Below the pieces are notes generated by a model that had not been told where the DNA came from, did not search any database, and saw nothing but the letters and a program-made list of their open reading frames with translations. The translations under genes were made by a program, and so were the position numbers. Shown here piece by piece: positions 42,888 through 47,384 of a DNA stretch of 64,000 nucleotides. Origin of the DNA: Cerasicoccus sp. TK19100 (GTDB taxonomy: Bacteria; Verrucomicrobiota; Verrucomicrobiia; Opitutales; Cerasicoccaceae). Position 1 is the stretch's first letter. Each line of letters opens with the position of its first letter. Location of the stretch: positions 620,001 through 684,000 of the forward strand of contig NZ_JAPWDU010000001.1 in assembly GCF_027257155.1 (NCBI RefSeq). Direction: 5' to 3'.

Positions 42888-44750
<1,863 letters not shown>

Positions 44751-44771: not shown

Positions 44772-46613
44772 TTAGTTGGGCAATTCAATGGTGGGAGGCT
44801 GAAGCTTGAGGCGGCGAAGGCGGATGCGCTCCTGGTGAAGCTTCCGCATTTCCTCAGGCGGGACAGATTGAGCGTTTAGAATACGCTCTTCCAGATCTTG
44901 CTGGGCGCGTTTGATGTATTGTTCGAATAAGCGGCGAATGCATTCATTAACGGCTTGGATCGGGTCTTCAAAAGTAAGTTCGCGCGTGAGCAATTGGTAA
45001 ATATAGTTCCGTTCGTCCTCATTTTCAAGAAGGGGTTCCAGTGTTTCCGCGCCGTCCCATTGATCAATCTCGGCTTCTGCTAGGACAAGGCCAAGCAGCC
45101 TCCCGTCTCGTTGGGAGGTGTCAAGCCATTCATGGTCAATGGTTTGTGCATAATGCTGGGCCAGATCTGGCCGATGTAAAGCGGTGAATAATAAGACTGA
45201 CTCCGCGCTTGTCAATTTTTCAGTGTTACCGTTCTGCTGGGCGGGCTGGGGCGCAGGTTGGCCCTGAGCGCGCTGGTCGCGCTGGCGGTGGCGGCGGAAG
45301 TCCGTCTCCAAAGCCGAGCGGTCAGTGCGCGTAAGATGCGCCAGTTCGTCCAAATATTCCCCTCGTACAACGGCGCTATCGCAGCCGGCTAAAGTGGTAA
45401 ACATCGTTTCCAGCACCGCCGCCTTGTCTCGCGGAGTCGACTGGCCGGGTTTAGGCAGTAGCGCATTGACGGCAAAACGGACGGCGCTCAGGCGCTTGGC
45501 GCGGAGCTCTTCTAAGGCATTGGCTCCCTGATCGCGGAGCAGGTCGTCCGGATCCATGCCTTCGGGTAGGGGGAGAAAATGCACCTCCAGACCGGCGGCG
45601 AGGGCCAGTGGGAGCATCCGCATGGCCGCCTTTTGTCCGGCGCGGTCGCCATCGAGCAGCACCTCGATTTTGGGCGTGTATTTACGCAGCAGGGAAAGCT
45701 GGTTTTCGGTGATTGCCGTGCCCTGCGGGGCAACGGCCTCATGGACGCCTTGCTGAAAGCAGCGCAAGCAGTCGAGCTGGCCCTCGACCAGGACAAAGGC
45801 CTTGGTCTCGTCGATGTGCTTACGAGCGTGGTCGAGGCCGAAGAGCACGTTGCTTTTCGTAAAGAGTGGCGTCTCGGGCGAGTTAACGTATTTTGCTTCC
45901 TTGGAGTTGTCGTCCTCGGGCACGAGGTCGGTGGTGCGTGCGGTGAACGCAATGACGCGGCCCTGGATGTCGCGGATGGGAATCATCAACCGGCCGCGGA
46001 AGCGGGGCCGGGCCCGGGAGGCGTCCCGCGCGTTGTCGTAAATGTAAAGCAAGCCGCAGGCCTTGAGCGCCTCAATGGAGAAGCCCTTACCTGCCATGTA
46101 TTTCACAAAGCCTTCGCCGGAGGAGGGGGCCAGGCCGATTTTGTATTCGTCGGCCATTTCGAGCGGAAACTGGCGCTTTTCGGTCCAGTATTCGCGGATA
46201 AACTCAGCCTCAGGGTGGTCGGCGTGGAAGGCGCGGTGGTAGTAGTCCGTCGCGACTTCGTGGATCTGGAACAGCTCTTTGCGCAGTGATGCGCGCTCCG
46301 GTGTCATGCCGTCGCTGTCGTATTCCAGCGGCACGTTGTAGCGCTCGGCGAGGAATTCCACGGCCTCGGGGAAGCTGAGGTTTTCCTTGAGCATGACAAA
46401 GCGGAAGAGGTTCCCCGCGTTGCCGCTGGAGTAGTCGTGGAAGACGTTTTTCTCCGGGTGGACGTAAAAGCTGGGCGTTTTCTCGCTGCCAAATGGCGAT
46501 AAGCCCCGCCACTGGGCTCCTGCGCGCTTCATTTGCGTGTATAATCCCGCAACGTCCACCAGGCTAACTTGCTGGTTGATGGTATCGAGGCAGCTTTGCG
46601 CAATTAAGGGCAT
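44772..46613 (-). CDS. dnaG: DNA primase DnaG, zinc ligands replaced
   Basis: Primase synthesises RNA primers at the replication fork. The start is placed at MPLIAQSCLDTINQQVSLVD (613 residues), giving the usual N-terminus. The catalytic core is normal: WTEKRQFPLEMADEYKIG, the basic FRGRLMIPIRDIQGRVIAF segment, and a TOPRIM domain with VLVEGQLD and LLDGDRAGQKAA. The N-terminal zinc-ribbon fold is recognisable (GLSPFGSEKTPSFYVHPEKN), but all four zinc ligands are changed: Ser39, Gly42, Asp60 and Ser63 stand where CxxH and CxxC are expected. A helicase-binding-like C-terminal region follows a Gln/Pro-rich linker. It is the first gene of the dnaG-rpoD pair. Confidence 0.93.
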   Translation of the reverse strand: MPLIAQSCLDTINQQVSLVDVAGLYTQMKRAGAQWRGLSPFGSEKTPSFYVHPEKNVFHDYSSGNAGNLFRFVMLKENLSFPEAVEFLAERYNVPLEYDSDGMTPERASLRKELFQIHEVATDYYHRAFHADHPEAEFIREYWTEKRQFPLEMADEYKIGLAPSSGEGFVKYMAGKGFSIEALKACGLLYIYDNARDASRARPRFRGRLMIPIRDIQGRVIAFTARTTDLVPEDDNSKEAKYVNSPETPLFTKSNVLFGLDHARKHIDETKAFVLVEGQLDCLRCFQQGVHEAVAPQGTAITENQLSLLRKYTPKIEVLLDGDRAGQKAAMRMLPLALAAGLEVHFLPLPEGMDPDDLLRDQGANALEELRAKRLSAVRFAVNALLPKPGQSTPRDKAAVLETMFTTLAGCDSAVVRGEYLDELAHLTRTDRSALETDFRRHRQRDQRAQGQPAPQPAQQNGNTEKLTSAESVLLFTALHRPDLAQHYAQTIDHEWLDTSQRDGRLLGLVLAEAEIDQWDGAETLEPLLENEDERNYIYQLLTRELTFEDPIQAVNECIRRLFEQYIKRAQQDLEERILNAQSVPPEEMRKLHQERIRLRRLKLQPPTIELPN

Positions 46614-46784
46614 AACGTATGAATCTGGCAGATATCCCCTCCAAGGCCAAGCGCGCACGGAAGTTTTTTTATAGAGGTCGCCCGCAATCTAATTTGCAGT
46701 TGAGAATGTATCAGCTAAGAATCTTTTGGCCCTGACTGCAATTACACTTGATTTGCAAGATGGTAGGGTTATTAATTGCTGGAT

Positions 46785-47384
46785 ATGGGTATTATACGCT
46801 ACATTCTGCCACTGGTCTTAGTAACTAACCTGAATGCAATGTTGATCTTTTCATTGCAGGATGTCGGATCGGATTTGGTCCTTACCGCGACTGGGTCCGT
46901 GAATAGTATCACGGGCTTGAACGTCGCTTTAATCAACCAGCCTGGGGGCAACTCTAACATGAATGCCTCGGCTGGACTGTTCGTTGCTGGAACTGGCACC
47001 AGTTTTAATCAGTATAATAACCTAAGTGGTCCGTTGTCGATCGGCTCAGGTGGCGGTTTTGGTATTGCAACAGGTGGTTCGTCAGGTCCATTTGCGGGAA
47101 TTAACGGCTCAGGTGGGAGCCTCTACACGGAAGGAAATTATGTGTTGGGCACGCCGATTAACAGCACTTCCTTTTGGACGGGGGCGTCGCTGGCTTCCTA
47201 CGGCATCACGCCTGGGGTCTACACGTGGACTTGGGGTGGCGGTTCGGGTGACTCAGCTGTGCTCTACGCAGGTGTGACTCCGATCCCCGAGCCGACAACT
47301 TACATTGCGTTGGCGGGCTTTGTTGGGCTCTGGCTGTTTGTGTGGCACCGGCGTTGGGTGAAGGCGCATCAGTCAGCGGAATAG
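46785..47384 (+). CDS. PEP-CTERM sorted surface protein
   Basis: A 199-residue exported protein starting MGIIRYILPLVLVTNLNAML (a TTG three codons upstream is also open). The mature part is Gly/Ser-rich with no known fold. The C-terminus is a complete PEP-CTERM signal: IPEP, helix TYIALAGFVGLWLFVW, then HRRWVK. It is expected to be processed by an exosortase and displayed in the surface matrix. It is divergent from dnaG and independent of it. Confidence 0.85.
   Translation: MGIIRYILPLVLVTNLNAMLIFSLQDVGSDLVLTATGSVNSITGLNVALINQPGGNSNMNASAGLFVAGTGTSFNQYNNLSGPLSIGSGGGFGIATGGSSGPFAGINGSGGSLYTEGNYVLGTPINSTSFWTGASLASYGITPGVYTWTWGGGSGDSAVLYAGVTPIPEPTTYIALAGFVGLWLFVWHRRWVKAHQSAE

Follow-up and report, generated by a model that had tools for sequence, protein, structure and literature searches.

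The DnaG primase encoded in the stretch of Cerasicoccus sp. TK19100 DNA analysed here (64,000 nucleotides, hereafter the window) lacks all four zinc ligands of its N-terminal zinc ribbon, a domain that is usually described as zinc-binding and as needed for template recognition. We consider it likely that this protein is a normal, essential replicative primase whose zinc ribbon has taken on a metal-free form, the loss of the ligands indicating that the window ribbon would hold no metal. The four ligands have given way to a fixed set of replacements, the surrounding ribbon is under strong constraint, and the same replacements recur in separate bacterial lineages and in phages.

The window dnaG and its ribbon

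Apart from the zinc ligands, all features tested place the window dnaG in the DnaG family (Table 1). The product passes the curated whole-protein score of the TIGR01391 dnaG model (358 bits against a cut-off of 283.6), contains the Pfam domains Zn_ribbon_DnaG (PF01807), DNAG_N, Toprim and DnaB_bind, and is 86-87% identical to the DnaG proteins of Cerasicoccus maritimus and C. frondis. A longer form starting from a GTG at 46658 is possible; relatives use the ATG position. The DnaB_bind match (PF10410, 22.8 bits against a cut-off of 20.6) covers residues 379-432, just ahead of the C-terminal region, and the final helicase-interaction domain of the window DnaG gave no Pfam match. Directly downstream, on the same strand and after a gap of 21 bp, lies rpoD. 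The adjacency of dnaG and rpoD is the classical setting of the housekeeping primase, and the window dnaG is therefore assigned to this role. Just upstream of dnaG, on the opposite strand, a frame at 46776-47384 (+) ends in a PEP-CTERM-like sorting signal (PIPEPTTYIALAGFVGLWLFVWHRRW).

Table 1. Position of dnaG, its domains and zinc-ligand sites, and the neighbouring rpoD in the window
Feature	Coordinates	Strand	Basis or state
rpoD, principal sigma factor	42888..44750	-	NCBIfam RpoD PRK05658, 592 bits vs 555; RpoD_Cterm, 388 vs 354
dnaG, DNA primase	44772..46613	-	613 aa, ATG at 46613; translation, TIGR01391, four Pfam domains
C-terminal region, residues 441-613, putative helicase-binding	44775..45293	-	Assigned by position alone, after residue 440
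TOPRIM catalytic core, residues 273-359	45537..45797	-	Pfam Toprim_2; motif counts; alignment
N-terminal zinc-ribbon domain without zinc ligands, residues 1-100	46314..46613	-	PF01807, 81.8 bits vs 24.9
Ser63, zinc ligand 4 position (E. coli Cys64)	46425..46427	-	Ser/Thr in 84/84 zinc-free sequences
Ser62, in place of Gly between ligands 3 and 4	46428..46430	-	All 84 zinc-free sequences have Ser, all 93 CHCC sequences Gly
Asp60, zinc ligand 3 position (E. coli Cys61)	46434..46436	-	Cys in 67, Asp in 17 of 84 zinc-free sequences
Gly42, zinc ligand 2 position (E. coli His43)	46488..46490	-	N/T/S/K/G/Q/A among zinc-free sequences
Ser39, zinc ligand 1 position (E. coli Cys40)	46497..46499	-	Ser in 84/84 zinc-free sequences

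Within the catalytic core, the acidic residues E277-G-x-x-D281, D321-x-D323 and D354-P-D-D are invariant across 38 aligned, diverse DnaG proteins, in agreement with a preliminary description of this DNA that had reported the TOPRIM core to be intact. The polymerase domain of a structural model matches those of the DnaG proteins of S. aureus (4edg, Z 36.2) and Aquifex (2au3, Z 34.2). A C-x-x-C pair (C282/C285 in EGQLDCLRC, about 45759-45770) stands straight after the EGxxD motif and is kept in all ten family members; C285 is common across the whole order, and C282 is not.

The window genome (5.07 Mb, 97% complete) contains one match to PF01807 and one to DNAG_N, both of which are the window dnaG. 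The search of the whole genome with these two models found no second dnaG, canonical or otherwise, and neither a Prim-Pol nor a PriS-type (archaeal-type) primase was found in it. The window gene is thus the sole DnaG found in the genome, as expected of the single-copy primase that had been proposed. Second, mobile-element-type TOPRIM primases with the Cys-His-Cys-Cys (CHCC) ligands intact are present in sister species of the window genome (L043, G104:C27; L044, G054:C14). Elsewhere in the order, one single-contig genome (G081, 95% complete) gave zero matches to the DnaG ribbon, although such a match exists in sister species from the same genus. The dnaG of Cerasicoccus arenae (L047, NZ_BMXG01000025.1) is interrupted within its catalytic domain by a frameshift, located at a stretch of 16 G, which is either a draft error or real.

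The ribbon of the window DnaG reads WRGLSPFGSEKTPSFYVHPEKNVFHDYSSGNAG. When this is aligned with E. coli DnaG, the ligands C40, H43, C61 and C64 of the latter fall on S39, G42, D60 and S63, and the four-ligand CHCC feature of PF01807 is absent. The alignment confirms the claim of the preliminary description that all four zinc ligands are replaced; the interval that it gave, 46429-46500, is right for three of the ligand codons, and that of S63 falls just outside. In the nine other genomes collected for the window's family, the four positions are S-[NG]-D-S, and this agreement of all ten family genomes, together with the low dN/dS given below, rules out a sequencing error, chance or a pseudogene. 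Residues 1-110 contain one Cys (C8) and two His (H52 and H59). C8 or H59 is missing in relatives of the same family, several members of which lack Cys altogether over residues 1-110, and neither the family nor the wider zinc-free set has a conserved set of spare Cys/His within the ribbon. No other conserved Cys/His was found there to serve as zinc ligands, and the reported loss stands in this respect also.

An AlphaFold2 model of residues 1-440 has a mean pLDDT of 91.1. In a comparison of structures, its N-terminal 100 residues matched the ribbon of the zinc-bearing B. stearothermophilus DnaG (1d0q_A) with a Z score of 15.0 and an rmsd of 2.3 Å over 100 residues. In order to lessen the pull of zinc-bearing homologues, a second model, of residues 1-103, was derived from four zinc-free sequences alone. 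This model has a pLDDT of 85.4, with a less confident loop at about residues 41-50 (65), and matches 1d0q with a Z score of 12.9 and a TM-score of 0.77. The ribbon fold is predicted to persist without the ligands, with the proviso that AlphaFold can draw a zinc ribbon whether or not the metal is needed. The preliminary description had spoken of a primase without its ribbon, and in this it was mistaken: the domain is kept, strongly conserved and predicted to adopt the 1d0q fold. The metal site alone is replaced, and a loss of start-site reading does not follow from this.

Replacement code and distribution of the zinc-free form

The ligand positions were read in 277 loci, with certain genes represented more than once, and the states observed are bimodal: either CHCC or S-[N/T/S/G/K/Q/A]-[C/D]-[S/T]. 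The sole other states are one unaligned row and two ribbons interrupted by insertions. The latter belong to alphaproteobacterial DnaG frames of 993 and 720 aa (L276, G395:C19; L277, G536:C246), in which about 300 residues are inserted into the zinc ribbon immediately behind 'HCF'/'HCL'; a LAGLIDADG domain is present in the insert of L276, and the insertion is probably an intein in the zinc site.

For a closer comparison, 84 zinc-free sequences from two phyla, which are related and do not represent 84 independent events, were set against 93 CHCC sequences. All 84 have Ser at positions 39 and 62 and Ser or Thr at position 63, while C39, G62 and C63 are found in each of the 93. A Cys is kept at the ligand 3 position in 82% of the compared Verrucomicrobiota zinc-free sequences. 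On the template side, E44, P47, S48, F49 and G67 are identical in the two classes. Between Cerasicoccus species, a simple pairwise estimate for close species with dS near 1 gives the ribbon a dN/dS of 0.03-0.04; the catalytic domain has 0.05-0.07 and the C-terminal region 0.06-0.17, and by this measure the ribbon is the slowest-evolving part of dnaG. The pairs L035-L036 and L037-L039, in each of which one sequence had been taken from the wrong strand, are left out of these figures. The combination of a fixed code with strong constraint is what would be expected of a part that has been rebuilt and still works, and not of one in decay. In the catalytic domain, no compensating changes common to both phyla stood out as clearly as those in the ribbon.

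In the window's order, all sampled families are zinc-free with the exception of family f14, which is CHCC. Outside the order, families f30 and f34 of the same class are zinc-free, the other families of the class are CHCC, and so is the remainder of the Verrucomicrobiota sample. The loss had been suggested to be lineage-wide in this phylum; it is indeed lineage-wide, comprising the order minus f14 and a second clade of the class, but it is not phylum-wide. Asp occupies the ligand 3 position in all ten genomes of the window family and in most of the read members of family f8; most other zinc-free families keep Cys there.

The loss is not peculiar to Verrucomicrobiota either, since the same replacement is found in Alphaproteobacteria and in phages. 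Among 240 alphaproteobacterial genomes searched, loci were read at the best- and worst-scoring ends alone, so that the resulting figure of at least 11 genomes with a zinc-free DnaG is a count and not a frequency; one of these loci (L262) reads exactly S-G-D-S. The dnaG of Methylobacterium bullatum reads S-N-C-S and has an rpoD-like frame after it, and Methylorubrum extorquens AM1 has a megaplasmid primase (L371, NC_012811.1, 906595-910873) that reads S-Q-C-S with its catalytic motifs intact. The zinc-free code is furthermore present in Flavobacterium phages laban6-1 and 2A, Cellulophaga phage Ingeline_1 and Caulobacter phage Sansa (L357-L360), and in phage primases of uncultivated viral contigs from IMG/VR (L306-L309, L311 and L312). 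The hosts of the Flavobacterium and Cellulophaga phages are Bacteroidota. The copies examined from Sinorhizobium meliloti pSymB, Tistrella, Sphingomonas, Halomonas, Bacteroides and Prevotella are CHCC, and the idea that Rhizobiaceae are zinc-free thus does not hold for S. meliloti, as judged by its pSymB copy. None of the genomes examined was observed to have the housekeeping dnaG in both forms.

Origins, alternative readings and mechanism

In a tree of the catalytic domain, Alphaproteobacteria and Verrucomicrobiota stand apart, and in a tree of the ribbon alone, from which the ligand columns had been removed, the alphaproteobacterial ribbons form one branch (support 99) separate from Verrucomicrobiota. 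This separation of the phyla in the ribbon tree implies that the shared code arose independently, by convergence. The occurrence of one code in Verrucomicrobiota, Alphaproteobacteria and phages, the last being possible carriers, could also be taken to mean that a zinc-free ribbon was moved between phyla by horizontal transfer and not by repeated independent change; we regard this as decidedly unlikely, because the ribbons without their ligand columns, and likewise the catalytic domains, group by their own phylum. Within the class, families f30 and f34 group with the CHCC families and away from the order in both the catalytic and the RpoB trees, which indicates a second loss event in the class, and the RpoB tree is compatible with two such losses. 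The catalytic tree nests the CHCC family f14 inside the zinc-free families. A position of f14 outside them was not rejected by the AU test (p = 0.33), and in the RpoB tree the zinc-free families of the order form one branch against f14 plus the outgroup (support 75/82, which is not strong). As these two results permit a simpler history, we do not claim a regain of zinc by f14. The distribution and the trees together suggest that the zinc ligands were lost at least three times.

With its ligands lost, the ribbon might be a relic that is merely structural, so that start sites would be chosen by the DnaB helicase and the polymerase domain without its help, and the helicase is known to alter the start-site preference of primase (PMC5204125). 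However, the ribbon evolves more slowly than any other part of dnaG, its E-K-T-P-S-F motif is the same in zinc and zinc-free forms, and removal of the domain in B. subtilis abolishes stable template binding (PMC5429622), all of which makes a relic unlikely. It is very doubtful that the ribbon still binds zinc or another metal through other ligands, for which H52, H59, D60, C8, E44 or the C282-x-x-C285 pair might be considered. H52 is conserved in all ten family members, C282/C285 are kept in the family too, and most Verrucomicrobiota zinc-free sequences have the above-mentioned Cys at the ligand 3 position; yet H52, the sole family-conserved candidate in the ribbon, varies across the wider zinc-free set, residues 1-110 are without any Cys in several family members, and a lone side chain is no substitute for a four-ligand site. 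The TOPRIM C-x-x-C, for its part, is in a different domain, and C282 is missing from most other zinc-free primases. Finally, the extra mobile-element-type primases of sister species, with CHCC intact, might hint that another primase does the essential work and that dnaG is free to decay. This is scarcely credible for the window genome, in which (at 97% completeness) neither a further match to PF01807 or DNAG_N nor a Prim-Pol or PriS was found, and in which dnaG is under purifying selection and adjoins rpoD.

The preferred reading therefore remains a working ribbon without metal. In other primases two knuckles clamp the zinc. In the metal-free ribbon, Ser/Thr/Asp side chains may instead hydrogen-bond the two knuckles while neighbouring aromatics pack, by which the shape of the ribbon would be kept. 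Since the template-facing residues E44-K-T-P-S-F49 and G67 are unchanged, the ribbon most likely still handles the template, and it would position and select it for the TOPRIM polymerase domain as the ribbon of zinc-bearing primases does. In B. subtilis, stable template binding requires the zinc domain of DnaG, which is linked to the polymerase domain by a tether (PMC5429622), and in C. difficile a single Lys/His next to the ribbon determines the start trinucleotide (PMC5204125). When placed by way of the printed Aquifex sequence, the C. difficile residue would correspond to H59 of the window protein, just before ligand 3.

A likely path to the window form is one in which the three other ligands were lost first and a Cys was kept at position 3, the last step being the change of this Cys to Asp that the window DnaG would have reached. 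Candidate drivers are zinc sparing or an escape from an oxidation-prone thiol/metal site. Zinc is unlikely to be shunned altogether, given that the zinc site of RNA polymerase is retained in the same genomes: the N-terminal RpoC site CxC...CxxC is intact in the window genome (L302) and in those loci of relatives that reach the rpoC start, with the pattern not seen in one full-length locus (L285) and two loci ending too early. On a wider scale, we lean towards the view that the pattern S-P-F-x-x-E-K-[TS]-P-S-F ... [CD]-[FY]-S-[ST]-G is a second, metal-free solution to the ribbon, one at which bacteria arrived on three or more occasions through the same replacements, in a full replicative primase that reads its start sites without zinc.

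Significance and comparison with known systems

No description of a ligand-free bacterial DnaG was found in the open literature, the coverage of which does not extend to subscription papers. Zinc-free forms of essential zinc proteins are already known. Natural, ligand-free replicative primases separate 'zinc' from 'ribbon', so that the role of the metal beyond the fold, and the choice of start sites, become testable. The replacement code, drawn from separate lineages, provides a ready recipe for building a metal-free primase into laboratory strains, and Methylobacterium bullatum is a tractable relative with a zinc-free dnaG. Furthermore, an inhibitor directed at the zinc site would not find the same target in bacteria with a zinc-free DnaG.

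The closest known system is the CHC2-type bacterial DnaG (PF01807/TIGR01391; 1d0q, 2au3), with which the window protein shares its domain order, predicted ribbon fold, template-side motif, TOPRIM residues and adjacency to rpoD, and from which it differs in having a fixed metal-free set at the four ligands and the intervening glycine. The NrS-1 phage primase-polymerase is likewise a priming enzyme without the zinc motif, in place of which it has a loop (PMC8718748). It belongs to the archaeo-eukaryotic primase superfamily, unrelated to DnaG, and has this loop rather than a rebuilt ribbon. In the N-terminal primase-like domain of animal mitochondrial TWINKLE and the insect mtDNA helicase, which is of the same ribbon family, the homologous zinc site has become an iron-sulphur cluster in Drosophila and has been lost in human TWINKLE (PMC8688847). 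Animal TWINKLE is active as a helicase only (PMC3610141), whereas the window DnaG has intact catalytic residues and is the only primase found in its cell. Ribosomal protein S4, which exists in zinc (C+) and zinc-free (C-) forms (PMC3087516), is similar in that it is an essential core protein whose two forms are scattered over bacterial phyla. The S4 forms, however, spread by gene transfer, some genomes holding both, while the DnaG ribbon trees favour independent replacement. With DnaG, an essential replication protein joins the core proteins that have zinc and zinc-free forms.
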